A DNA stretch of 64,000 bases from Xestospongia bergquistia (lineage: Eukaryota; Porifera; Demospongiae; Haplosclerida; Petrosiidae), in the NCBI GenBank assembly GCA_963965975.1, contig OZ014412.1, positions 1,800,501 to 1,864,500 on the forward strand, given 5' to 3'. Every line of letters begins with the position of its first letter. The first letter of the stretch is position 1. A program made the position numbers and the translations under genes. The notes under the pieces were generated by a model that saw only the letters and a program-made list of their open reading frames with translations, had not been told where the DNA came from and searched no databases. Below, piece after piece: positions 42,945 to 63,399 of this stretch.

Positions 42945-45605
42945 TTAATTAATATTAACATAATCAGGTGTTATTGTAACAAGTTCATAAGATGTATTCT
43001 GTGTCATTGTTATCTGATATTGTTTAGTATCTTCATATGATATATTATGTTGTATAGTTATATCATCATCAATACTATTACACTCTATAATATAATATAA
43101 TTAGATTATATTACATGTATACATGATATACATACTCTGTATCTTCTTTATATAATAAACACCCACACAAACAACACTAACAATACTAATTAGGATTATC
43201 ACAATAATACTAATGATACTAGTAACTATTATAACTAAAGAAGTGATATAAACTAATCATATAATATTATATACTAACCATTACTAGAAGTTGATTGAGT
43301 TGGTTCATTAGAAGGAGATGAAATCATCAAAGATGTTATAACTAGATAATATTAATAATAAAATATTAATGTTAGATCATCACATTTAATTATATTATAT
43401 AGTTAATTATATTATATAACTCACTATATCATTATCAGTAATATTCAATATATATCTTACCATCAACAGTAATAGTAGATAATAATACTGATATAGTAGA
43501 AGTAATAACTTGTGTAGATGATGACTCTATTACTAATATATTCTGTTCTTTATATACAACTACATTATCTGAAGAATTATCATTCTCAATATCATAGACA
43601 TAGAGATCATATAATCCAGTAACAATGTTCACACATCCAGTAGATGTACTAGCTGTGATAGGACTTCTTAAGAACTGCTTTTCAAGTATAATAATATCAT
43701 TTTGTAATAAGTTGATCAGACATCCTAACTCTGTAGCTCCATTAATATAGTAACATATAATACATATAGAACCAGGATTAATATTAACTATCACATTCTG
43801 TATACCATGAGTAGCTATAATAGATAATAATAATAATAATAATAATAATATATTATTGTACTTACTAAAGTTAACATCAGTGATTGTATTAAATGTTCCA
43901 TCAAGATTACTAAGAGTAACTTCACCAATATATGTCATATCAGGACTTAATATAATAGAGTTAGTTATATTAAGAGATGCTCCACTAGTTAATACATTAC
44001 TCATTATAGTATATATCACTTCACCAGTAGTAGAATTCTTTATATCTACTATACCATTAGTAGGGTATTCTCCAGGACAAAGGTGAGTTACCTAATAGAA
44101 ATAATATTATACTATATAAGGAAATCATTTACAGTTATCATAACAGTAATGTAATATAATAGTAGGTTTATATTACCTAATATATTGTGTGTATTATTAT
44201 ATACTGATGTATGTAATATATCATACTATGTTAACTATATAGACTATTGTATACCAGTACATGTAGAAGTGAGTTATATATTAAGTTATATTATGTATAT
44301 ATTTAACTAATATATAAACATACATTATTAATACATCTATTGTTATTATAATATCTTACATTAACTAATATAATAATATGGACCATATTTCCTGATATTA
44401 CTGGAGTAACAGTCATAGATATCAATGAACTGTTATGAGGTACTGTAATAGAAAGTGAAAATAAAATTAATATAATACACATATAAATACTTTGTTTACT
44501 AATAATAATATATCATAATAAATAATTAAGAACATACCTTTTGGGAAATAAAATGATACATTAGATATGATACCATTACCAGCTGTATTAATAGCAAATA
44601 TATCTACTGTTATTTCAGTACAAGGATTAGTTTCATTAGATCCACTTTGATATGATAATTGTAGGGACTCTGTGAAATATGTCTCTATTTCATTTGTTAG
44701 TGTGTTAGTAATAGTAATATTGTAGACATTAATATATGTATTATCAAGAGTATATGGAGCAGACCAAGATAATATTACTGTATTAGTACTAGTAATATTA
44801 ACAGTTAGATCTCTAACACCATCTAATAAACCTATAATGAGATAATAAAATAAATGTAGTTTTAGATATAATACATGATATATACCTTGAATTAATAATA
44901 ATGCAGTATTGCTAATATCATCAGATAATGGTGATGTAGTAATGGCAACACAAGATATATTAGTATTATTGTTTCCTTCTCTTGGATCAACTAATAAAAC
45001 TCTTCTTCTTATTGTATTATTGACATGCTCTGTATCTTGTTGATGAAACCCTTTATTTGCGATATTAGCATCATCAGCTGGTATATTGTTAACACGAAAG
45101 TTTATGAATTCAGCTCTAGCTTCACAACTGAAGTTAACTTGTCCTGAGTTTACAGTAGTATTCACAGATAATGGATGAACTAATATCACTAAGAGAGAAG
45201 ACAGAATAGTAATAATACTATCAGATATTGTCAATTCCTTACTAGCATCCTGACATATAATACAGTTCAAATGTATGAGGATTATGACTAAAAAAATAAA
45301 CCTGTGAACAAATATGATAATTGTAGGGACTCTTTATACAATATATAGATAATATAAAAAAATATTTAACTAGCAACTGATGTATTGTCAAATGAATACA
45401 TTGAATTAGCTCAAAACAAGCAAGTAATAATAATAATAATAATAAGTAAGTAATGTAATAAATTTTGGATCTACAAAAATTAAAAACGAGTTAAGAATAT
45501 CACAGATCACAATATTAGAGTGAGTTATAAATATGGTTCTGCACAAACGATATTATTATTATTTAACTTGCTGACTTGTACTACTCACCTCCAACAACAT
45601 CTCAT
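42945..45605 (-). CDS. Receptor J: Ig-FN3 receptor with ITSM-like tail
   Basis: Ten exons close in frame: 45605-45589, 45301-45243, 45188-44886, 44831-44538, 44442-44360, 44091-43866, 43814-43461, 43341-43279, 43234-43136 and 43084-42945 (545 aa). A signal peptide (MRCCWRFIFLVIILIHLNC) precedes an Ig-like domain (NFSCEA ... NISCVA) and an FN3 module (ILSWSAPY ... AGNGIISNVSFYF). Two further extracellular segments follow, the second Cys-containing (CIICYY, TGCVNIV), then a short Ser/Thr stalk, one membrane helix (about 467-490) and a 46-residue tail. The tail contains TSYELV (Tyr 532), which fits the ITSM pattern T-x-Y-x-x-V, and DYVNI (Tyr 541). It is head to head with K. No domain database was consulted. 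Confidence 0.78.
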
Positions 45606-45678
45606 AGTTCTTTGTGTCCGCAAAACATAGAGCCACTCCTAATAATCTCCAAGGGAGGAGTGGCTAGATCTTAACCAA
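45606..45678. promoter_or_regulatory. Short bidirectional promoter region between J and K
   Basis: Only 73 bp separate the start codons of divergent genes J and K, so both 5' UTRs and core promoters are squeezed here or overlap the J 5' introns. A related sequence (gcaaaac, ctcc, ggagtggctag-like blocks) lies upstream of L at about 52215-52280. Confidence 0.5.
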
Positions 45679-48072
45679 ATGGCTGTTATCTTAGCATTGT
45701 TATCTTTGGTGTTCATCTCATTCTCATTATTTTATTCTTCAGTTTGGTCCTGTGGTAAGTAAAAACTATTTCTCTTTCAGTATTCAATTTATCATTACTG
45801 TTTGCAATTGTTCAGAGTTTGTAGAAGACCCAGTCTCAATCAATAGTACTGTAGGTGCTACAGTTAACATATCATGTACTGCTAAAAACTGTGGTAATAA
45901 AGGTATAAGAGTTATAAAAGGTAAAAATGACATCACCAATGACTGTGGTGATCCTTGTAATGGCACTTACTGTCATTTCATCTGCACTTTGGAGCTAACT
46001 AGCAATGATAATGGAGACATTGTATATTGTCAAAGTCTTGATCCTTATGTAAAATCTAAGGAGGCTATACTAGAAATCCAGAGTAAGTTGATAGTTAGTT
46101 AATTAAATAGTTACCATTCTACAATTATAGGTTATTTAGATCCAGTAAATAATATCAATATCAAAGATGTTAATGAGTCCATTATAACATTTGTATGGAG
46201 TCCTCCATTTGTATTAGATGACATCATTATTACATATATGATATCATTAGGATATATCAATGATACTCCATTCATTGAGAACATTACTAACACTAATACA
46301 TGGAGTGTTAAGTCACAATATTTAGATCATTGTAGACTAGTTAATATATCAGTTATAACTTATGCTGGTACATTAATATCTAATACTACATATTGGACTG
46401 GACCAATACCTTATCGTAAGTATAACAAAATTATAAGATATAAATTATATATATCATAGCTCCTCCCCCTGGATTACTTGTTAATGCAATAACAAAAGTT
46501 AGTGAATTAACAAATGGAAATGTCTCCTGTTGTACTATATTTAAGGTCAGTTATTATAATAATAATAGATAAGTTGTTTATAGTAGTTATTATAAGAGGT
46601 CACAAAACTGTCCTGGACAGAAGAGTACTTATGCTCATATATACGTCAACTATACTAATGAACATAGATTAAAAGAGTACATAGTTCCAGTACATCATTA
46701 TAATGATAGTATAACTGTTATTGGAGAATGTGGTAGTTCAGAATTTTCACTATTTGGAAATGATTACATTTATATGATTATGAACCTGGGAAATATAGCA
46801 GGAGAAACACATCAAAATACAATTTTCACTCAAAGTAAGTCAACTTTTTGGAATGTAATGTGATATATTAATAATTATATTCATTAATCTAATGACTATC
46901 ATTACTAGGTACTTATGAAGTTCAAGGATTAGATCACTTTACTAGTAATAATAGTGTTGAGTGTTTTCAATGTCATATCATTGATGGTTCTAACTCTCAA
47001 TATTGTTACATTAAACTTACTTCAGATGATTATAGTAATACTACTAGAGTACCAAAGGAAGTTATTGATTGTCATAATGAGTGGATTCCTAATGGTACAT
47101 ATAATATATGTGTAACAGCTATGCAGCCTACACCTCAACAACAACAATGTGATGTGTTTAGTACATCTGTATCTATTTATGGAACAGGTAATGACATCAT
47201 TATTAGTAATGTTCCATGATATATTTCACTTTTATATAACTCCTACTTCAACAGTTATTCCTTCTCCTACAGTCACTCCAACTAATAGTTCTGGATTTTG
47301 TATGTACATGTTGTTATAATTATCACTTTTAAATTAATTTATTATTTTATAATAGCCTGGATATACATTGTGATAGCAGTTGGTGGTGTAGTTGGAGCAA
47401 TTGTACTTATATTGGTGACACTGTTGTTAACCTATTATATTCAAAAACGGTGCAAAAAAAGACCAAGTATTGTTACAAGTGTTGTATCAAGTAAGTAATA
47501 TATACTAATGATAATTTTTATTTTATTATTAGATGGTTATGGCACAACTCAAAGCACATCTTCCACTAGCCCACAGTAATTTGTTGATATCATGTACACA
47601 TAATATGTAACATATAAACTATTTTATTTTATAGTCAATCTATCAGTAATTCATCTGGTCCTGATATGTAAGTGGCATATCATAAAGAATATTTAAAATA
47701 ATCACTTAATATTTTATAGTGAGAGCAACCAACAAAAAGCATTATCTCATCCTACTGATAATATTAATAACAAGGTACTAACTATTTTTTGTTGAAAATT
47801 TATTAATAATCTTTTGAAGACTACTGATACATCAACTGTTTCATATACTGCAAATTCTGAACAAGTTCTAATACCTGAAGTTGATCCTAGTGACGTTTAT
47901 CTCTCAGAACCAGAGTTCTCACATGTATGATGTCATTTTATCATTGATTACAATTATATTATGTTTCCTATAGACGCCAACTGGTGGAACAGAATTAGCA
48001 ATAAGCTTGACAAGTCAGACTAGTCAATCAAGTTCTGACACTGATAAAAAGAAAATTGCTGAAAAGCCTTAG
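45679..48072 (+). CDS. Receptor K: Ig-FN3 receptor without ITIM
   Basis: Thirteen exons close in frame: 45679-45754, 45816-46082, 46131-46415, 46460-46545, 46597-46834, 46909-47187, 47255-47299, 47356-47490, 47533-47575, 47635-47667, 47720-47774, 47820-47924 and 47974-48072 (581 aa). Signal MAVILALLSLVFISF; Cys-rich Ig domain (NISCTAKNC ... IVYCQSL); FN3 (FVWSPPF ... VITYAGT); two more FN3-like segments rich in N-sequons; Pro/Thr stalk; membrane helix (IYIVIAVGGVVGAIVLILVTLLLTYYI). The tail of about 130 residues is Ser/Thr/Asp-rich with VSYTANS and DVYLSEP but no ITIM or ITAM pattern. Its ectodomain is near identical to L. The donor after CCCACA (47576) is weak; if unused, the protein stops at that TAA. 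Confidence 0.8.
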
Positions 48073-50309
48073 GAGTCAATGAAGTCACTAACAATACAAT
48101 AGTTTTTTAATTTATCAGTATTTGTATTGTATCTCTAAGATATTTTAGACTCACGATTTTTATTGCAAACAATACTTACTTTATGATGTTAATAATTGAT
48201 GCACTGCAAATATGAGAAATAATGAACATGTACTTGTGATATTTAAATGATCAGGTTTGTGATGTTTATGTCAATTGTAAAATTCATACAATACATTCCT
48301 AATTAGTATGGAAAAATATCTGAGATCTCAGCATGCTGCATGAGGTTTATATTATTTATATCTCTGATTGAAATTTCACTACATATACTCTTTGTAATGT
48401 ATACATTTACATATAGTGGTATAGTACCATTCTCTACATCATATACATAGACTGTAACTACCAGCTGGAAGTTTATCGATACAATCTTGTATAGTAAGAT
48501 CATTAGGATTATATTTGACACATGATTTGTTCTTTGAAATCAGTCAGATATAACATGAATTGTTATGAATAAAAGGAACACCTGTTAATTAATTTCAATA
48601 TCATTTGAAAGTATACTATAATTGTATGGATGGATTTGTGGACTCCATGTCACTTTTCTCGTTTCTTTCAATTTTGACAATGTCATCCATCAATCCTTGA
48701 ATATATCTTTCTATTTTCAACATGTTCTTCTGTCACTATATATCACTCACTACATGTACATGTACTATATCACCACATGTACATGTACTATATTCCTACA
48801 TATATACTATATCAGTACATATACATGTACTATATTCCTACATATATACTGTATTACCACATATACATGTACTATATTCCTACATATATACTATATTACT
48901 ACATGTACATGTACTGTACACCTGCTAATTATTTTTAATGTCATTTGATCACATGCTCTAATATTATATTATATATGTACATGTAAATTTTAAGGATAAG
49001 ATAAGGCAAACACTTGCCAGGTGTATCTGTGACAATGCAATCACAATAGTACATGCTTTGAACTGTTTGAACATGAACTTCATGAGATACTGATGAATTG
49101 GATTAGATATAAACTCATACACCTTCTGATCATGTGATCTACTGTGATATGTGTTTGAGGAAAGAAATGTTGAGTTCCAAAGATTTTATATCAACTTAAC
49201 ATTATCATATACACAATTAAGTTTGCTGTCAAATTATATACTGTAACTACCTAGTTTTAACATACAGTAAAGTTGTTAATAGATCTATCACATCCAATGT
49301 TATAATCAACATAATGTAAAGTTATATTGATATACATATACTGACAGTTATTGTAAATATTCAATGTATATAGATAATATATTAACATGTTCATAATGTG
49401 GTTGTTCTCAACCAAGAGCCTTCCTGTAGATATAGCATATATAATCAATAAACTAAATACACTGACAAGTATACACTGTTAATAAAACCTCATGTTTTTT
49501 TATACTTTCATTATGTATTAATTGTTATATTGTTGTCATATAGTAGTATAAGGCTATTGGTAAAGAGAACAACAACAATTGTAAACATTATAAACTTAAC
49601 AATGACAATGCATGTTTAATAGCTACTAGTTACTTATACAAATGCAGTTAGTTTATTGATTGATAGTTGGATGACTTGAATTGGACCAACAGACAGACAA
49701 ATGATGAATAAAAAGTTTAAAGGTCTAAAGGACAAATTAATATAGTTCATATTGGAGAAATTTAATAGTTTATATAATTGTAAGCACCATTCTCCATTAG
49801 CTATGGTATTTGTAATCAGATGGTGTTATTTGTGAACCCTTTGTTCAGTAGATTATGTCATGATACTGATGTTAAAAATATTGTGATTAATAGAGGTATT
49901 ATTGAATAAGTTACAATCTAAGCCTTTAGCACCTGGTTATGTCCAGGCAACCTTAACTTCAAACAGCGTGAGTTACTTCAATAAAGCTCATATATTTCAA
50001 ACTTTTGTCTTAGGAACTTGTAATGGTCATTCAGCTGGGAACAGGTAGTCAGGAAAATACTTTCCATTTTATATTGTCATTATATTTTAATATTTCACTA
50101 TTTCAATATAATAATTATATATATATATATATTACTCTAATTATTATACACACACACACACATATATATATATTGTAAGGCAGAGTGACATTCACTTTGT
50201 AACAGTGAGCACTAATTAACTGTTCACTTGTACAAAGTCAATGTCACTGTTAATATAAATAACAGGTGCTATAACTACTCCTTACATATGAACATTTTTC
50301 TTTGCAGGA
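48073..50309. other. Intergenic stretch downstream of K
   Basis: No gene seen. It is homologous in patches to 55.6-56.88 kb (for example aaagaaatgtt-agttccaaagatt and the aacagtgagcactaattaac block just before the SRCR gene), showing it is part of the duplicated unit. Confidence 0.55.
48757..48915. repeat. 42-bp minisatellite, about 3.5 copies
   Basis: Unit catgtactatattcctacat followed by atatactatattaccacatata, repeated with minor changes. Confidence 0.8.
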
Positions 50310-50989
50310 ATGGAAGCTATCATCTTTACAGTACTATTTCTTTCATGCTCCTATCTTTTCTATTGACAAAGGATGTTTACAGAATGAATTTTTGCATGGT
50401 AGCCAGTACTGCAAGTAATAGTGACTTCTTAATTTACTGAATCTAGATCTATCAGCTCCTATTGAAGGAAATGTTAGACTAGTGAATGGAACAAACTACA
50501 ACAGTCAGGTTGGACGTGTTGAAATATACTCTTCAGGAGCCTGGTATTCTGTCTGTGCTGATCATGATCTTTGTACTGATGCTGCAAAAGTTATATGCAG
50601 GCAATTAGGATACTCAGATATTGGTATGTTTCATTGACATAGACGTATTGTATTCAATATGTGTTATATTTGTAGGTGCTCAAGTCTATGGATTAGCTTT
50701 ATATGGTCAAGGAAATGGTACAGTTGGTTTTCAAAATGTATCTTGTCTTGGAACTGAACTCATGATCAATGTTATAATTACTTCATGTAATTATACCTCA
50801 CCATCAACCTATTCTCATAGTATGGATGCAGCAGTAAGCTGTCAACAAGATTCAATATGTCTATCAATTGGAGGTCATTCTGGATGCTGTGATGGACTCC
50901 GTGTATCTGAATGCTGCATAGGAAAACCTCACAATTGTTGGTGTGACTCTGTTTTGTTATTTCTATCGAGACTGTTGTCCTTGTATTAA
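50310..50989 (+). pseudogene. M1: broken SRCR plus somatomedin-B-like secreted protein
   Basis: The signal exon begins MEAIIFTVLFLSCSYLF and then hits TGA at 50364-50366, and the donor seen in M2 (AAG|GTATG) is destroyed. The SRCR domain remains open in exons 50447-50623 ([41 protein letters not shown]) and 50676 onward (ALYGQGNG, VSCLGTE, AAVSCQQ). In the following Cys-rich segment (CCDGLRVSECC, NCWCDS) an extra T at about 50952-50955 shifts the frame relative to the somatomedin-B-like continuation. The 3' exon of M2 is absent because homology switches to the J-like relic at about 50,995. Confidence 0.75.
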
Positions 50990-50994
50990 TGCTA

Positions 50995-51320
50995 TTTGTT
51001 AATAAATCTCTTCTTATTATTGTATTATTGACATATTCTGTATCTTGTTGATGAAAACCCTTATTGAAAATGTTAGCATCATCAGCTGGTGACAAGAAAG
51101 TTTATAAATTGTGCTCTAGCTTCACAAGTGAAGTTAACTTGTCCTGAGTTTACAGTAGTATTCACAGATAATGGATGAAATAATATCACTTAAAAGGAAG
51201 AGACAGGATAGTGAAAATATTATTAGATATTGTCATCTTCTTTCTAGACTTCCTGACTTATAATACAGTTCAATTGTACAAGGATTATGATCAAATTAAT
51301 TAGAAAAATAAAACTGTAAA
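50995..51320 (-). pseudogene. J2: 5' relic of a second J-type receptor
   Basis: Matches part of J exons 2 and 3 (for example PADDANI, KGFHQQDTE, VNNTI on the minus strand; tcacaagtgaagttaacttgtcctgag). It has a 10-bp deletion in the Ig domain and lacks every exon after the Ig domain and the first exon with the start codon. It lies upstream of L exactly as J lies upstream of K. Confidence 0.8.
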
Positions 51321-52280
51321 CACAACATGTACAATGCAAGTTGTCATAATAATATAACGATGCTATAATATTATTATATACAACTTGTAGAAAATATAAA
51401 TAGTTATTTGACCAGAAACTCATATATTGTTTAAATGAATACACGAATTAGTTTAAAGCATAACAATTAACATTCTAAATTAAATAATACATTTTAGATC
51501 TACAATTAAAAACAAATTAAGGATCTCACAGATCATAAATATTAGAGTGAGTTATAAATATAGTTTTTTTAACTGATTAATAATTCAAAAGTATTGGACC
51601 CTGTACAAAGCTTGAGGTTAGTATACTTCAGTATACTGTCATAATATAAACAGGCTAAATTTCAGGGTTCTAGAGCATCTGTGAAAGAGGTGGATAAAAT
51701 AGAAGTCAGGGGATTTCCTTGTTAGCTGTTAAGGTAGTGAGGTAGTGGTTTATTGATTGATATCTTTAGAGCTGAGCAGCTTAAAGATAACTTTTTATAA
51801 CATAGCTAATATGTATATTTTGCTATAATATTATGTTAACTTCAAAACAGCAGTCAAACATTGGCAGGTTTATGTGTTTAGCTTCAAATCTTTACTTGTT
51901 GTAGTTTATCGTGTCTGCTTGCTAGCAAACCAAGGTTCAAACCTCCAAGTTGTCTGTGAATTATTTAGACAAAATCAAAATGTCAAAAATTCAAAAAGTA
52001 TCTCTTTAAAATTACCTCTCTTCATAGTTTAGAAAAGGTTCTTATAATTGTTACTGTTAAAATAGTAACATAACCTACCAGATTCTAAAGTAACAACATT
52101 GTCTCATTTTAAAAAGTCAAACTATACAGCTCTCAGAATGTTGCCTCATTGTTTGCTATGGGGAACCCGGTTCACTTCCTGTTGTCCAAATAAATGTAAC
52201 GCCTTTTTTCCTGCAAAACGCAGCTACGCCCTATAGTCTCCCAGAGGAATGGCTAGAGCCTAGATCTACTCTTGACCCAA
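51321..52280. other. Gene-free stretch upstream of L
   Basis: Contains sequence inserted or diverged relative to the J/K promoter (about 51.58-52.15 kb has no counterpart in unit 1). No gene supported. The last ~70 bp resemble the K promoter. Confidence 0.5.
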
Positions 52281-55200
52281 ATGTCTATCTTAGCTTTGTT
52301 CTCTTTAGTGTTCATATCTTTCTCGCTATCTTTTTCTTCAGTTCAGTCCTGTGGTAAGTGGTTCTCCTTTAGTATTCAATTTATTGTTACTGTTTTTCAG
52401 AGTTTGTAGAGGACCCAGTCTCAATCAACAATACTGTAGGTTCTACAGTTAACATATCATGTGCTGCTACAAACTGTAGTAAAGGTGTAAGAGTGATAAA
52501 AAGTGAAAATGACATCACCAATGACTGTGGTGATCCTTGTAATGGCACTTACTGTCATTTCATCTGCACTTTGGAGCTAACTAGCGATGATAATGGAGAC
52601 ACTATATATTGTCAAAGTCTTGTTCCTTATGTAAAATCTAAGGAGGCTATACTAGAAGTACAGAGTAAGTTGATAGTTAGTTAATTAAATAGTTACCATT
52701 CTACAATTATAGGTTATTTAGATCCAGTAAATAATATCAATATCAAAGATGCTAATAAGTCCATTATAACATTTGTATGGAATCCTCCATTTGTATTAGA
52801 TAACATCAATATTACATATATGATATCATTAGGATATATCAATGATACTCCATTCATTGAGAACATTACTAATACTAATACATGGAGTGTTAAGTCACAA
52901 CATTTAGATCACTGTAGACTAGTTAATATATCAGTTATAACTTATGCTGGTACATTAATATCTAATACTACTTATTGGACTGGACCAATACCTTATCGTA
53001 AGTATAACTAAATCATAAGATATAAATTATATATATCTTAGCTCCTCCCTATGGATTACTTGTTAATGCAATAAAAAAAGTTAATAAATTAACAAATGGA
53101 AATGTCTCCTGTTGTATTATATTTAAGGTCAGTTATTATAATAATAATAGATAAGTTGTTAATAGTAGTTATTATAATAGAAGTCACAAAACTGTCCTGG
53201 ACAGGAGAGTACTTATGCTCATATATATGTCAGCTATACTAATCATGAACATGGATTAAAAGAGTATATAGTTCCAGTACATCATTATAATGATAGTATA
53301 ACTGTTATTGGAGAATGTGGTAGTTCAGAATTTTCACTATTTGGAAATGACCACATTCAAATGATCATGGACCTAGGAAATATGGCAGGAGAAACACTTC
53401 AAAATACAATTTTTACTCAAAGTAAGTCAACTTTTTGGAATGTAATGTGATATGCTAATTATTATATTCATTAACCTCATTACTAGGTACTTATGAAGTT
53501 CAAGGATTAGATCACTTTACTAGTAATAATAGTGTTGAGTGTTTTCAATGTCATATCATTAATGGTTCTAACTCTCAATATTGTTACATTAAACTTACTT
53601 CAGTCACTAATGATTATAGTAATACTACTAGAGTACCAAAGGAAGTTATTGATTGTCATAATGAGTGGATTCCAAATGGTACATATAATATATGTGTAAC
53701 AGCTATACAGCCTACACCTCAACACCAACAATGTGATGTGTTTAGTTCATCTGTATCTATTTATGGAACAGGTAATGACATCATTATTAAAAATGTATCA
53801 TTATATAATTATAATCTGTATTTATAGTAACTCCAACTGTTACACCAACTGAGCCTTCTAAACCTTGTATGTGCACTATAATTATTGTCATTTATAAATT
53901 TAATCTTTATGAATTTTATCATAGTTTGGATATTTGGAATAGCTGGAGCAGTTATACTCATTATTATTATTATTATACTTATACTTTTTAAAAAATCTCA
54001 AATTTGTAAGAGGAGAAGTGAACCAGATGAACCACTAAATGGACAAGGACAAAACAGTATATGTAGTAAATTATTAGTATGAGTTTATTGATGATTTGAT
54101 TTTGTTTTCAGATAGTTATAGAAGAGATTCACAAAGTACATCACACACTCCTAGGTAGGTATCTCAACTTTTTAATATCATCTATATGTAATGTAACATG
54201 TAACAAAACTTTCTACAGTGCTAATCATCAATCCATCAATAATTCCTCCAGTCCAAACAATAACATTAGAGAGTAAGTAACTCGAAAAGCATTCATAGTA
54301 ATGATTTATTTTTCTAAGTGACAGCCACCAGATAACTACTTCACCTCAACCTATTGCTATAACAGTGGTACAAACTAGATCAATTTTACAATGACATATT
54401 ACAGTAATATTGGTCATTTAGGGTACTTGTGACCATGATTCATCTGTTAGATTTACTGCAGGTTCTGAGGAACAAGAAGACATAGATTATGACTATTCAG
54501 AACTTTTACAGGTATATTTATTTTATACTGATTATTTTGCATTGCTTTAAATTAAATTTTGTTTAGACACCCACTAATGCTAGCAATGCAGATCAAATGC
54601 ATGTAGAGACTGGTCTACCTGGAGCTAACTATGATGTTGATGAAAGAGCCATGTCTGAAGATGAGAATGGAAAGAAACCTGTTGTTGTGTCAGGAAGAAT
54701 ATCTAGGTATAAATATAATATAATTCAAATTAATAATTTTAATATATCATCATTAACTCAGTATTAAAAGAGATGGGAGCTCTGTAAACCCTTCTGACTA
54801 TTCTGAAAGTGCTCCATTACTCTCTCAGGAAATGGTACCAGTAAAATGCATAAAACTATATTCTATTTATGTCATAGAAAACAGAACCAGTTGTTTATCA
54901 AGATCTTAAGCAATTTTCTAAAAAGCGACCTCAAGCTCCTCCCTCAAGAGTAGAATATGCTGATATACATCATTTTCCACCAAAAACAGAACAGCATCCT
55001 CCATCTTATGATGATATAGAGCCATCAATACCTAGTGTTACTATAATACCAGCTAATGTACATGATGATGATATACCATCTCCTATACCAGCTAATGTAC
55101 AAAATGATGATATACCACCTCCTATACCAGCTAATGTACAAGATGATGATATACCACCTCCTATATCAGCTAATGTACAAGATGATGATATACCACCTCC

Positions 55201-55540
55201 TATACCAGCTAATGTACAAGATGATGATATACCACCTCCTATACCAGTTAATGTACAAGATGATGATATACCACCTCCTATACCAGCTAACGTACAAGAT
55301 GATGATATACCACCTCCTATACCAGCTAACGTACAAGATGATGATATACCACCTCCTATACCAACTATTGTACAAGATGATGATATACCACCTATACCAG
55401 CTAATGTACAAGATGATGATATACCACCTCCTATACCAGCTAATGTACAAGATAATGATATACCACCTATACCAGCTAATGTACAAGATGATGATATACC
55501 ACCATCTTGTTATGAGAGATCCTCTGTTACATACTTATAG
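52281..55540 (+). CDS. Receptor L: Ig-FN3 receptor with two ITIM motifs and a Pro-rich repeat tail
   Basis: Fifteen exons close in frame: 52281-52353, 52401-52664, 52713-52997, 53042-53127, 53181-53421, 53487-53771, 53828-53866, 53925-54056, 54112-54154, 54219-54272, 54319-54367, 54422-54511, 54567-54706, 54762-54834 and 54878-55540 (838 aa). The ectodomain copies K (signal, Cys-rich Ig, FN3, two FN3-like segments). Membrane helix about residues 427-447 (GIAGAVILIIIIIILILF). The tail of about 390 residues holds DYSELL, then in the last exon VVYQDL (Tyr 625) and VEYADI (Tyr 645), both canonical ITIMs 20 residues apart. A PPSY WW-binding motif (Tyr 662) and eleven DDDIPPPIPANVQ repeats follow, ending SSVTYL. 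In vertebrates such motifs recruit SH2 phosphatases. An inhibitory role is inference. Confidence 0.83.
55065..55505 (+). repeat. 39-bp coding minisatellite in L tail, 11 full units
   Basis: Unit DDDIPPPIPANVQ (39 nt). Two units lack one Pro codon (36 nt), so every length change keeps the frame. The first unit is IPSPIP and the last is cut by the C-terminal SCYERSSVTYL. Confidence 0.95.
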
Positions 55541-56881
<1,341 letters not shown>

Positions 56882-57709
56882 ATGGAAGCTATCATCTTTA
56901 CAGTACTACTTCTTTCATGCTCCTATCTAGTCTATACCCAAGGTATGTGTATATGGAATATTGCTTTGTATGGTAGCAAATACTGCAAATAATAGTGACA
57001 TCTTAACTTGTTGAATCTAGATCTATCAGCTCCTATTGAAGGAAGTGTTAGACTAGTGAATGGAACAAACTACAACAGTCAGGTTGGACGTGTTGAAATA
57101 TACTCTTCAGGAGCCTGGTATTCTGTCTGTGCTGATCATGATCTCTGTACTAATGCTGCAAAAGTTATATGCAGGCAATTAGGATACTCAGATATTGGTA
57201 GTTTTATTGACATAGACATTTTGTATTCAATATATATTATACTTTAGGTGCTCAAGTCTATGGCTTAGCCTTATATGGTGAAGGAAATAGTACAGTTGGT
57301 TTTCAAAATGTATCTTGTCTTGGAACAGAACTCAATGTTACTTCATCTAATTATACCTCACCATCAACCTGTTCTCATAGCATGGATGAAGCAGTAAGCT
57401 GTCAACAAGATTCAATATGTCTATCAATTGGAGGTCATTCTGAATGCTGTGCTGGACTCCATGTGTCTGAATGCTGCATAGGAAGACCTCATAATTTGTT
57501 GGTGTGACTCTGTTTGTTATTTCTATCAAGACTGTTGTCCTGGTATTAATGCTACTTGTCCTGGTAAGTTTTAACACACATATGGTGTCCACAATGACTG
57601 TAATAATTTTGCAGGCCCAAATGGTGGTGGTAGTGGCTTGCCTTTAGGCATGTCATGTTCTAATGTTGGTGATATTACTTTTGTTAATACTTATGTATAT
57701 GTTATATAA
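56882..57709 (+). pseudogene. M2: SRCR plus somatomedin-B-like secreted protein, one frameshift
   Basis: Exons 56882-56942 (signal MEAIIFTVLLLSCSYLVYTQ), 57021-57197 and 57248-57563 (one SRCR domain: [57 protein letters not shown]) and 57615-57709 (Gly-rich end, VNTYVYVI-stop). After the SRCR domain comes a Cys-rich module (CCAGLHVSECC) whose continuation, one base out of frame, has the CxC...C...DCC...C spacing of a somatomedin B domain. The extra T is within ttt at 57495-57497 and leads to TGA at 57505. As it stands the product would be a secreted SRCR domain only. Frameshift or base-call error both possible. Confidence 0.7.
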
Positions 57710-59145: not shown

Positions 59146-62100
59146 TCATATAAAAGAAGGGGACCCAGGACACATTAAAGGAACTTCTGTATCATCAGTA
59201 GACAGAGCTGGTGGAGGCTTCTTGAATATCATCATAATTTTTGCAATTGGTGATTTTAAACAAGATTTAGACAGACGATCCCAGACATGATAGAGGATAA
59301 TACCGCAGAATACAACAAATGATACTGATACTAAAGCAACACTTAACACTCGACTTGATTTCGATTTTTCACAGGTTTGTACATTTACATAAGCCATAAA
59401 CATGAGGTTAAGAAAAAAAGACATCTCTAGACAAGCCAAAGGTAAATGCCAATATATTCCCTTCAAAAGAAAGTGCATTGATAAAATAACAAATAAAATA
59501 GATGCTAACACATCCAAAATTATGGTACTCTCAGTATCTAGAGACACAACCAGTGCTAAGACAATACGAACAAGTAATAAAAATCCAGTCCAAAAACGAC
59601 ACTTGTCCTTATATGGACCCCCATATGCATCAAAGAAAGGTTTCATATATGTCAACAACTTTTGACAGCAACACATGTATTTTGATAGAGGTCCTTCAAA
59701 TAATGGTATAGTAAGAAGGTAGAAGGTATATGGAACAATAAGTAAAATGAGTACAGCCAGTGAGAAGAAGAACAATGGTAGATGACAATAACCTCCTACA
59801 TATTGGACATTAGCATCAATGTACCACCTCAATAATGTGACATTATTATTTCCATTACACTGAATATTAACAAAATAAAGGGCTTGGAAGACAGTACGTA
59901 TCAGTTTAGTATAAGAGAGAAGGATCATAGTGGCTAGTACTGGAACTGCATGTGAGCCCACAAGTCGAACCACTTTGCTGGAATATTGTGATAATATTAT
60001 GATGAGTATTAAAAGAAACCAAACATAGCCTGGAAAGATAAATTGTAGCCATGTCTTACTACAAGAATCCATACCATCAATGAAACAAGTCTCGATACTC
60101 AGATCTAGATTGATCCAGGAGATGAATTGACTAAAAAGTTTCACGTGACCATTTGGAAAGAAGATGGGTTCATATATTTTGACAACATTAGCATAGAATA
60201 TAAGTCCATTGATTGTACCAACAGACACAGTTAAGTTCAAAGCAATAAGAAAAGTTACTAATACTATACCAGCTAAAGCAAATAGAATGATAAGAACTAT
60301 GTAGTTGTTAGTACATTGTCCACATTGATTGGAACCTAACATGAGACTAAGCCCTTCAGAACATTGTCCACAGAGTATGCCAGATCGATTGAGAAGACAT
60401 TGTGGATCAGGAGAGTTGATTTTAATTTGAATTGTTCCATCATTGCAATAATCAAAGGGACAGTGAGGATAAACAATAAGGCAGTCTGAGTCATTTTTAT
60501 AACCAATCCACATATCACCATCTCTAGTTATAATTTGAGTGTTAATATCACAAGTTATTGAAGGTGAACTTAATTCAGACCTGCAAACACAAGTGTCCTT
60601 AATCAATGGAAACCCAATTGGACAGGACTCAATTGTAACTTCGAAGACTTTAACTAAGGGGTCTGATGAAGGTTCACTGATTGAACTTTCAAGTGTTACG
60701 TAGACTTGTGTTGTGTTCAATGAAGGGTTTGCTCTTAACACAAAGGTTACATTGGTACAAGTTGCATTTAGTCTATTGTTGTCATATTGTACAATATCAT
60801 TAGATGAATTATCTGTTGTCAATTTTATCATACCCTTTGTTAAGCCATCTTTTATACCAACAGTAGCTAGTGATATAGTGACATCAATTCCAGGTATGCT
60901 AGTTATATTGATGTTTGTAATAGAGCAATTTTGTTTGTCTGATTCACAAAAACACACTTGGATAGGATCTGATGACACTGCTGATAGACCTGTCTGTTGA
61001 GGGTAGTCAAATGTACAATCAAAGTCAAAGTCCAAACAATTAGATATTTTACCTCCATACAAGACGTTGCCAGATATGTCAGCTGTATTGTTAACAAAAT
61101 ATAATACTGTCTTATTATCACAATAAACATAATAAGGAATAACATTAAAAGAACAGTCTGTCTCGGTGGTTAAATCAAAACTTTGTAACACAAAGATCCC
61201 TCCACCTGACTCACTGGCATGATTATTGACAAATGATACATTGCAATGTTCTTTTAGTACTAATCGGGAAGAGTCATATAAAGCAATGCCTCCACCATAA
61301 ATACCTGAATTGTTTACAAATGTGTTGTTTTTATCAAATGTTAACCAGCTATTAAAAGAGAGTAAACCAGTTGTGTTATGATTACTAACCTCAATTTGGT
61401 CAAATTTAACATTTTCAATGTTGATTATTAACACAGCAGATTGATATTTAACAAGCTTTTTCGGTATTTTATTGTAATGAAATAAAACATTTGTAAAGAG
61501 AAGATTAATTGTTGAAGTATCTTGAAAAGCAAAGAGACACAGTCCTGATCCATAGTATGCAATATTGTTGTATATAGTGCAGCTACTAAACTCAATACTA
61601 CCACTTCCATTACTCAAGTTAATGAATACTCCTCCTCCATATTGCCAAGCAGTATTGTTGTATATAGTGCAGTTATCAAACGCAGTACTACCACTTCTTT
61701 TATACAACCTAATATATATTCCTCCTCCATATATCTGAGCAGTATTGCCGTATATAGTGCAGTTATCGAACTCAATACTACTATTTCCGTTATACAAGTT
61801 AATGTATGCTCCTCCTCCAAATATCTGAGCAGTATTGTTGTATATAGCGCAGTTACCAAAGTCAATACTACCATTTCCATACTTCAAGTCAATATACGCT
61901 CCACCTCCATAGAACTGAGAAGTATTGTTGTATATAGTGCAGTTATCAAACTCAATACTACCATTCCCATTGTACAAGTCAATATACACTCCTCCTCCAT
62001 ACATCTGAGCAGTATTGCTGTATATAGTGCAATTATTGAACTCAATACTACCACTTCCATTATACAACTGAATGACCACTCCTCCTCCATATTGCTGAGC

Positions 62101-63399
62101 AGTATTGTTGTATATAGTGCAGCTACTAAACTCAATACTACCATTTCCATAATTCAAGTTATTGACCACTCCTCCTGCATCTGTTAGAGCAATATTGTTG
62201 TATATAGTGCAGTTATCAAACTTAATACTACCCCTTACATTATACATGTCAATATACACTCCTCCTCCTCCTCCATATAACAGAGCAGTATTGTTGTATA
62301 TAGTACAGCTACTAAACTCAATACTACCACTTCCTTCATACAAATTGATTTGTGCTCCTCCTCCTTCTATCAGACCAATATTGTTGTATATAGTGCAGTT
62401 ATCAAACTTAATACTACTACTTCCATTTTGCAAGTAAACAATCACTCCTCCATATAGCCAAGCCATATTGTTGTGTATGGTGCAGTTACTAAACTCAATA
62501 CTACCACTTTCATTATACAAGTAAATGAACACTCCTCCTCCATATGTACTATGTGAAAACCTACTGTTTTCAATGAATATCTCAGCTTTATTAGCACCAA
62601 CATATGACAAAGAAAAGCCATATCCTGAGCCCAATGTAAAGTTTGATTTCACGATATTAACTCTGGACACTCTATCAAGCTGGTCATCAGAGAAAATTCT
62701 TGTGTTGCCTACAAAAGTCTTTGTACCTCCATTATTAGTGAATGTGGAATTGACAATTAACACATCAAAAGCATTGTAAAGAACGAGTCCATCACCTGAA
62801 CCATTCTGGATGGATACCCAATCCAATGTTATATTATGTGTGCCAACAAAGAGCAAGCTAATATTAGTTTGTTTGTAAGTAATATTGTAAGACCCTCCAC
62901 AGTTTGCTATTGTTAACGATCTTAACACAACATCTGTGCTACTAGTAAATTGAATGCCAGCTCTATTGTAATTACTACATCTTAGTACTGAAGTATGTTG
63001 CATAACTGTCTCATGAAAACCTTGCTCTATATGACCTAGTCCCTGTAGAGTTATATTACTTACATTATTAATCTTCAATGTACTTTGTAGAGTATGAGTT
63101 CCCTCTAAAAAGTAGAAGATTGTATCATCAGTGAAGTAAGATTCATAATCAGCAGTATAGTAGGAGAGGTTGTGACAAGGTATGTCAGTAAAATTACAAG
63201 GTACTCCATTAGGAGCTGCAGAGACATAATATTCAGAAGCAGTAACATATCCACTGCAGATATACAATATAACTGATATTGTATAACAGATATGACACCA
63301 GATCATGATGGGAGCAGGTTCAACAGTGAAAACAGATAGAAATAAAGAGAATGAACTGACAAACAAGTAAGATAATTCAATTTGTATTGCTGCATCCAT
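59146..63399 (-). CDS. Intronless 1417-aa beta-helix, multi-pass membrane protein
   Basis: One uninterrupted frame. A hydrophobic signal-like segment follows the internal Met at 63306 (MIWCHICYTISVILYICSGYV), which may be the true start. The ectodomain (about 50-900) carries 11 tandem 30-residue repeats with NCTIYNNTAQ and YGGG cores plus related flanking units, as in parallel beta-helix proteins of the pectate-lyase/Pmp type. A Cys-rich linker (CVCRSEL, CDINTQ, GILCGQCSEGLSL, CGQC) precedes about eight hydrophobic helices (for example IVLIILFALAGIVLVTFLIA; WFLLILIIILSQY) and a cytosolic tail rich in Lys and Pro. I do not recognise a named family; function unknown. Lack of introns contrasts with all neighbours and suggests retroposition or an intronless family. 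Confidence 0.85.
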   Translation of the reverse strand: MDAAIQIELSYLFVSSFSLFLSVFTVEPAPIMIWCHICYTISVILYICSGYVTASEYYVSAAPNGVPCNFTDIPCHNLSYYTADYESYFTDDTIFYFLEGTHTLQSTLKINNVSNITLQGLGHIEQGFHETVMQHTSVLRCSNYNRAGIQFTSSTDVVLRSLTIANCGGSYNITYKQTNISLLFVGTHNITLDWVSIQNGSGDGLVLYNAFDVLIVNSTFTNNGGTKTFVGNTRIFSDDQLDRVSRVNIVKSNFTLGSGYGFSLSYVGANKAEIFIENSRFSHSTYGGGVFIYLYNESGSIEFSNCTIHNNMAWLYGGVIVYLQNGSSSIKFDNCTIYNNIGLIEGGGAQINLYEGSGSIEFSSCTIYNNTALLYGGGGGVYIDMYNVRGSIKFDNCTIYNNIALTDAGGVVNNLNYGNGSIEFSSCTIYNNTAQQYGGGVVIQLYNGSGSIEFNNCTIYSNTAQMYGGGVYIDLYNGNGSIEFDNCTIYNNTSQFYGGGAYIDLKYGNGSIDFGNCAIYNNTAQIFGGGAYINLYNGNSSIEFDNCTIYGNTAQIYGGGIYIRLYKRSGSTAFDNCTIYNNTAWQYGGGVFINLSNGSGSIEFSSCTIYNNIAYYGSGLCLFAFQDTSTINLLFTNVLFHYNKIPKKLVKYQSAVLIINIENVKFDQIEVSNHNTTGLLSFNSWLTFDKNNTFVNNSGIYGGGIALYDSSRLVLKEHCNVSFVNNHASESGGGIFVLQSFDLTTETDCSFNVIPYYVYCDNKTVLYFVNNTADISGNVLYGGKISNCLDFDFDCTFDYPQQTGLSAVSSDPIQVCFCESDKQNCSITNINITSIPGIDVTISLATVGIKDGLTKGMIKLTTDNSSNDIVQYDNNRLNATCTNVTFVLRANPSLNTTQVYVTLESSISEPSSDPLVKVFEVTIESCPIGFPLIKDTCVCRSELSSPSITCDINTQIITRDGDMWIGYKNDSDCLIVYPHCPFDYCNDGTIQIKINSPDPQCLLNRSGILCGQCSEGLSLMLGSNQCGQCTNNYIVLIILFALAGIVLVTFLIALNLTVSVGTINGLIFYANVVKIYEPIFFPNGHVKLFSQFISWINLDLSIETCFIDGMDSCSKTWLQFIFPGYVWFLLILIIILSQYSSKVVRLVGSHAVPVLATMILLSYTKLIRTVFQALYFVNIQCNGNNNVTLLRWYIDANVQYVGGYCHLPLFFFSLAVLILLIVPYTFYLLTIPLFEGPLSKYMCCCQKLLTYMKPFFDAYGGPYKDKCRFWTGFLLLVRIVLALVVSLDTESTIILDVLASILFVILSMHFLLKGIYWHLPLACLEMSFFLNLMFMAYVNVQTCEKSKSSRVLSVALVSVSFVVFCGIILYHVWDRLSKSCLKSPIAKIMMIFKKPPPALSTDDTEVPLMCPGSPSFI
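61540..62535 (-). repeat. 90-bp tandem repeat inside the beta-helix gene
   Basis: Eleven units of about 90 bp (30 codons, two slightly longer), recognisable by tatatagtgcagttatcaaa about every 90 bp. Units are highly alike at DNA level, indicating recent expansion or conversion. Confidence 0.93.

Follow-up and report, generated by a model that had tools for sequence, protein, structure and literature searches.

Clustered receptor genes sharing an ITIM-type tail exon with one constrained motif in the sponge Xestospongia bergquistia

Results

Structure of the receptor gene L

The 64,000-nucleotide stretch of Xestospongia bergquistia DNA analysed here (the window) carries a 15-exon receptor gene, L, its ectodomain twin K, and a receptor gene with a tail of another type (the B tail) that lies divergent to K; the coordinates of these genes and their features are collected in Table 1. 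An initial annotation had described L as a 15-exon Ig/FN3 receptor whose last exon encodes two ITIMs, VVYQDL and VEYADI, on the cytosolic side of a predicted helix, and after them a PPSY motif. Splicing by hand gave the same 15 exons, joined by 14 GT-AG introns of agreeing phase in one open frame. The product has 840 amino acids; a start of exon 5 at 53181 instead of 53184, one codon earlier and matching the neighbouring gene K, would make it 841. Read by eye from the translation, L appears to have a type I layout: a hydrophobic start in exon 1, the Ig and FN3 folds described below, and a hydrophobic stretch of about 20 residues in exon 8 followed by the basic residues KKSQICKRR. By this topology the two ITIMs fall on the presumed cytosolic side, as had been proposed. 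Both motifs were found in exon 15 where the annotation had placed them. They are the two matches in L to the consensus (S/I/V/L)xYxx(I/V/L), their tyrosines are 20 residues apart, and the PPSY motif does follow them. Exon 15 begins with KTEPVVYQDLKQFSKKRPQAPPSRVEYADIHHFPPKTEQHPPSYDDI and then enters a 39-base repeat; the copy number of the 13-residue unit varies among paralogues of the ITIM exon.

Table 1. Genes and features of the receptor locus, in window coordinates
Feature	Position	Strand	Basis or remark
B-tail receptor, divergent to K	42945..45186	-	extent from Ig exon to stop
B tail, NTSYELV + PDYVNI	43085-42948	-	translation
Gene K, ectodomain twin of L	45679..48072	+	13 exons, 581 aa; DNA match to L
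Decayed Ig region of B-tail receptor, upstream of L	51000..51565	-	75% to 44992-45538, broken frame
Receptor gene L	52281..55540	+	15 exons, GT-AG introns, consistent phases, single open frame
L, exons 1-4	52281-52353, 52401-52664, 52713-52997, 53042-53127	+	spliced by hand
L, exons 5-8	53184(or 53181)-53421, 53487-53771, 53828-53866, 53925-54065	+	
L, exons 9-12	54112-54154, 54219-54272, 54319-54367, 54422-54511	+	
L, exons 13-15	54567-54706, 54762-54834, 54878-55540	+	
Predicted Ig domain, N-terminal, exon 2 of L	52401..52664	+	AlphaFold and Foldseek, without Pfam match
Predicted FN3 domain, exon 3 of L	52713..52997	+	AlphaFold and Foldseek
Predicted transmembrane stretch then basic residues, exon 8 of L	53925..54065	+	by eye from translation
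DYSESAPLL, exon 14 of L	54762..54834	+	translation
ITIM 1, VVYQDL	54890..54907	+	exon 15 of L
ITIM 2, VEYADI	54950..54967	+	exon 15 of L
PPSY (PPxY), overlapping a YxxI motif	54998..55009	+	exon 15 of L
39-base (13-residue) tandem repeat IPANVQDDDIPPP, 11.9 copies	55046..55503	+	inside exon 15 of L; Tandem Repeats Finder

Predicted folds and divergence of the ectodomain

Pfam named no domain at E<=0.1 in the spliced L protein (682 aa, up to the repeats), and in pieces of sibling genes it gave FN3 matches in three of five (E 1e-4 to 1.3e-3, under the curated cut-off). Structures were predicted with AlphaFold from 12 (exon 2) and 13 (exon 3) window and locus sequences. The best of five models reached pLDDT 82 for exon 2 (range 82 to 37) and 85 for exon 3 (range 85 to 35); in each run the lowest-scoring model stood at about 36. 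With the exon 2 model, the 50 Foldseek matches listed were antibody variable domains, light chains among them, or Kirrel-type Ig domains (best E 1.7e-4, TM up to 0.72); with exon 3, the top entries among the matches listed were FN3 domains (best E 3.4e-5, TM 0.78). The Ig and FN3 domains of L are supported by predicted fold, not by profile, and on that footing the Ig/FN3 assignment of the annotation stands.

The ectodomain exons of the sibling genes have diverged to very different degrees. The N-terminal Ig exon is the most diverged (nine genes; dN 0.239, dS 0.342). Positive selection on it is not supported, dN being below dS and exceeding it in 3 of 36 pairs. Divergence is low in the first FN3 exon (11 genes; dN 0.073, dS 0.059; dN>dS in 32 of 55 pairs), in the FN3b exon (12 genes; 0.026 and 0.044) and in exon e6 (12 genes; 0.039 and 0.051). 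Judged by these distances, the Ig exon is old and diverse and its neighbours look recent or homogenised.

The tail exon belongs to a family in which ITIM 2 is constrained

The tail of L comprises 395 amino acids with 10 tyrosines. Shuffling it 20,000 times produced at least one ITIM match in 41% of trials and at least two in 8.9%, so the two strings in L are weak evidence by themselves. Conservation among paralogues is stronger evidence than the motif match. A query of 61 residues from exon 15 returned 31 matches in the genome (146.46 Mb, 21 contigs), the two weakest at E 0.14 and 0.58, and all on contig C2. Twenty-nine lie within C2:423,920-934,386 (0.5 Mb); the others are L itself and one at 1.98 Mb. 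L is not a lone receptor, and its tail exon is common to a gene family, a point that the annotation had missed. The motif it singled out is real, and is more interesting as part of this family.

We aligned 26 of the 31 copies; the five omitted were partial or frame-broken pieces or, in one case, not retrieved. The ITIM 1 consensus is present in 17 of 21 ungapped copies (17/26 overall, five being gapped or without the site). The ITIM 2 consensus is present in all 25 aligned copies that reach the site, a conservation that covers paralogues of one genome. Both are matched in 16 of the 26 copies, two of which contain stops. Exon 15 as a whole evolves with pN/pS near 1.1. Pairwise pN/pS is 0.13 for the three core positions of ITIM 2, 0.88 for the core of ITIM 1 and 1.26 for the rest of the exon, and column permutation gave P 0.018 for ITIM 2 (weakening to 0.037 when the two stop-bearing copies are removed), 0.33 for ITIM 1 and 0.034 for all six core positions. 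Parsimony counts of nonsynonymous and synonymous changes on a tree of 23 copies were 3/7 for ITIM 2, 10/2 for ITIM 1 and 205/36 for the rest of the exon (Fisher P 2e-4 for ITIM 2, 0.005 for all six core positions), and 0/3 for the ITIM 2 tyrosine alone (P 0.004). These P values serve as guides, the tail copies being recent and of common history. Taken together, the substitution patterns point to constraint on ITIM 2; ITIM 1 is often present but without measurable constraint. The equal weight that had been given to the two ITIMs is not upheld, since the evolution of ITIM 1 differs little from that of the remaining exon.

L is a chimera of two receptor classes

The DNA of K (45675-47364) and of L (52277-53933) is 89.4% identical over 1705 columns, and the match stops at the start of the helix exon; by eye, K has no ITIM. 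From 54791, within exon 14, onward, L is 87-89% identical by blastn, intron 14 included, to three receptors at C2:889-940 kb (L021, L024 and L037) whose exon 14 (SDYSES...LL) and exon 15 resemble those of L and whose ectodomain differs. Because it joins K-type ectodomain DNA to exons 14-15 that match another receptor class, L is a chimera. Exons 9-13 of L and K are still alike by eye, so the swapped part is exons 14-15, which may have been gained by L or lost by K. Among 21 loci examined, 11 (L023, L025-L028, L031-L036) have the exon order Ig, FN3, FN3b, e6, ITIM exon, and the tail exon occurs under at least three ectodomain classes on the same contig.

The decayed B-tail copy upstream of L mirrors the intact one upstream of K, so a divergent gene pair was probably duplicated, giving rise to K and L. 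The intact B-tail receptor and K are close as well as divergent and may share a promoter (window 45186-45679). Other features of the neighbourhood include duplicated pieces of an SRCR-domain gene (50148-50999 and 56719-57559), 91% identical, that flank L, and a minus-strand open frame of 1417 amino acids (59146-63399). This frame contains a 90-base repeat in about 11 copies (61559-62545; GSIEFxNCTIYNNTAQxYGGG), and several hydrophobic stretches lie toward its C terminus.

Similar ectodomains carry alternative tails

Across the genome, 45 places match the FN3b exon of the cluster, the weakest three being partial or containing a stop. We examined eight of these loci for tails. In all eight the FN3b exon is 90-95% identical to that of an ITIM gene (L025), and the ITIM exon was not found within 2.8-2.9 kb of any of them (the second gene of L051 being only partly covered). 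Four (L049, L050, L052, L055) have instead the short B tail, ...SYELVTITPDYVNIN, with SYEFV in L049. L053 and L054 share a tail of another kind, and in both the hydrophobic stretch has an Arg close to its inner end. L056 has two helix exons, with tails that are short or provisional.

Genome-wide, the B tail has 22 matches, 19 of them strong. In the seven B tails that we read, the residue at -2 of the first tyrosine is T in five and A in two, and the second motif is YVNI in six and YVDI in one. We take the TxYxxV of this tail to fit the ITSM pattern, and YVNI presumably recalls a Grb2-type site. A canonical ITAM was rejected for the B tail, as the spacing of YELV and YVNI is 5 residues and the last residue of YELV is V.

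Two features of paired receptors are found here. Very similar ectodomains appear on different tails (89% for L and K, 90-95% for FN3b), and the genes are clustered, with 29 of 31 tail exons in 0.5 Mb. No charged helix residue was seen in K or in five B-tail genes read, and a proven activating partner of the adaptor type was not found among K, these five genes and the siblings examined. At L051 (1430-1540; G000:C2:1914429-1914539), provisional splicing gives YYAVTVVCKAIILLFLLV, in which the hydrophobic stretch contains a Lys and the frame closes four residues beyond the helix. In this it resembles an adaptor-using activating receptor, and we regard it as a lead.

SHP-type phosphatases and SH2 kinases are encoded in the genome

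Searches of the genome for SH2 and PTP domains revealed at least eight loci of the SHP-type order SH2-SH2-phosphatase: an array at C3:1.265-1.284 Mb, one gene each at C3:916 kb and at C7:8.318 Mb, and, seen as partial exons, a locus with introns at C6:200 kb. Seven open reading frames are intronless and full-length, and three more in the array are fragments. WPD and HCSAGIGRTG are found in five of the seven; in the other two WPD is replaced by WPE, together with HCSSGIGRTG in one and QCSNGIGRTG in the other. Pfam recognised two SH2 domains and Y_phosphatase in every one of six submitted (six of the seven intronless full-length frames), and the C7 protein matched SHP-2 structures at 1e-196 over 517 residues. 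With tandem SH2 and PTP domains and the catalytic Cys and Arg, the predicted proteins belong to the SHP phosphatase family, and as encoded they could read the motifs of the L tail. The tandem intronless genes of the array (G000:C3:1265376-1283546; L041, L042), some with an altered WPD or P-loop and some fragmentary, are as expected of a multiplied retrocopy.

SH2 domains give 81 matches genome-wide, ten of them in a kinase array at G000:C6:1622265-1697212 (L046, L047), of which one open reading frame was checked by Pfam; we call these kinases Src-type in the sense of SH2 plus kinase only. Tyrosine phosphatase domains give 194 matches, with arrays on C5, C9, C10 and at C2:6.8-6.9 Mb, some near FN3 matches, and it looks as if receptor-type phosphatases are greatly expanded. 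A further array, at C9:1.50-1.52 Mb, is cathepsin-like: four other pieces read have CGSCWAF, and one gene reads GFCHSSYAFSITGAIEGAYALAT, with Ser for the catalytic Cys, the mark of silicatein, which supports a siliceous sponge as the source and agrees with the sponge-like character proposed in the annotation. Two qPCR primers of A. queenslandica (PMC5118744), which may span introns, had no match in the genome when one mismatch was allowed. This silicatein-like exon (G000:C9:1517820-1518070; L061) within tandem cathepsin-like genes is a possible view of the origin of silicatein.

Candidate readers of the tail

Our favoured reading, which we hold to be fairly probable, is that L has an ITIM-type tail read by SHP-type phosphatases. 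YxxI/L is also an endocytosis motif, acidic dileucines act in trafficking, and PPxY is a motif of NEDD4-type ligases. A tail devoted to trafficking, with no role for an SH2 phosphatase, would account for the presence in L of YSEL, YQDL, YADI, YDDI and ESAPLL, and for the retention of PPxY, which is intact in 14 of 22 copies and keeps its tyrosine in 19. Sorting by YxxI/L does not need a hydrophobic residue at -2, however, and all 25 copies that reach ITIM 2 have V, I or L at its -2 position, which has changed mostly silently (two nonsynonymous and four synonymous changes at this position alone, P 0.007). Given also the several SHP-type genes of the genome, we consider a purely trafficking tail unlikely.

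The tail tyrosines might instead recruit other SH2 proteins (Src-type, Grb2-type or inositol phosphatase), in which case the tail may be activating or a switch. The 81 SH2 matches offer many such readers, and the B tail, with its TxYxxV and YVNI recalling ITSM and Grb2 sites, would fit a cluster of this kind; but a VxYxxI whose -2 residue is hydrophobic follows the SHP-type pattern, and the genome does contain SHP-type genes, so we rate this reading as decidedly unlikely. We find it very doubtful that the motifs are no more than neutral relics, spread by gene conversion through a cluster with fast turnover: two chance matches in 8.9% of shuffles, the exon-wide pN/pS near 1.1, an unconstrained ITIM 1 and stops in 2 of 26 copies would all suit it, but the ITIM 2 core is constrained relative to the rest of the same exon, and conversion affects both alike.

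Discussion

Under the SHP-type reading, L would be a type I membrane receptor with Ig, FN3 and further ectodomain exons, one helix, and an ITIM-type docking site in its cytosolic tail. Ligand binding or clustering would lead a Src-type kinase to phosphorylate the tail tyrosines, chiefly that of VEYADI, and a tandem-SH2 phosphatase of the SHP type would then dock there and dampen nearby signalling. The tail exon is a common cassette, joined on L to a K-type ectodomain most simply via recombination. Siblings with near-identical FN3 exons have other tyrosine tails, so one outside can be wired to different insides, much as in vertebrate paired receptors.

In PMC3533184, paired receptors are described as similar ectodomains on different tails, with activating members using an adaptor, and the vertebrate examples (KIR, LILR, PILR, SIRP) are clustered genes in which one tail of a pair has ITIMs. 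The sponge genes are alike in joining similar ectodomains to different tails, one of them with ITIMs, and in being clustered. No sequence relation was seen, however, Pfam naming no domain in L, and the helices of K and five B-tail genes are uncharged, a Lys occurring only at the sibling locus L051. Two invertebrate families are alike by description. Hydractinia Alr is a clustered family of Ig type in which, according to the reviews PMC12065747 and PMC11999971, some members have an ITIM or ITAM; it shares clustering, Ig type and ITIM with the L family and differs in being cnidarian. The Botryllus fester co-receptors (FcoR) are presented in PMC12065747 as clustered multigene Ig receptors with ITIM, hemITAM or core tyrosine motifs. 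Unlike the sponge L family, they are tunicate proteins with an ectodomain of Ig, sushi and two Ig domains, and in some loci they swap motifs by alternative splicing, whereas in the sponge different tails sit on different genes.

On the phosphatase side, the sponge proteins resemble SHP-1 and SHP-2 (PTPN6 and PTPN11) in SH2-SH2-PTP order, SH2 arginines and the catalytic Cys and Arg, and differ in having at least eight loci, of which seven are intronless and two of these have WPE for WPD.

We tentatively propose that this sponge possesses combinatorial receptors in which Ig/FN3 ectodomains with a strongly diverged N-terminal Ig are combined with a small set of tails, one an inhibitory ITIM tail read by the expanded SHP set and another of opposite or switch type (TxYxxV and YVNI). 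This paired-receptor logic might serve recognition of self and non-self or of microbes, and could have been inherited from the first animals or have evolved independently in sponges.

The review PMC12065747 states that ITIM/ITAM-type signalling in self-recognition is common to cnidarians through mammals, and describes no conservation among the candidate allorecognition proteins of sponges, cnidarians and ascidians. We found no description of ITIM receptors in sponges in a literature search from which subscription papers were mostly absent, and the words ITIM and SHP do not occur in a sponge immune transcriptome paper (PMC12723187). Sponge receptors that are clustered, have a constrained ITIM tail as well as alternative ones, and occur together with several SHP-type phosphatases would extend the ITIM/ITAM logic to sponges, where on/off receptor signalling of immune style may exist. 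The L family would supply named candidate receptors for sponges.
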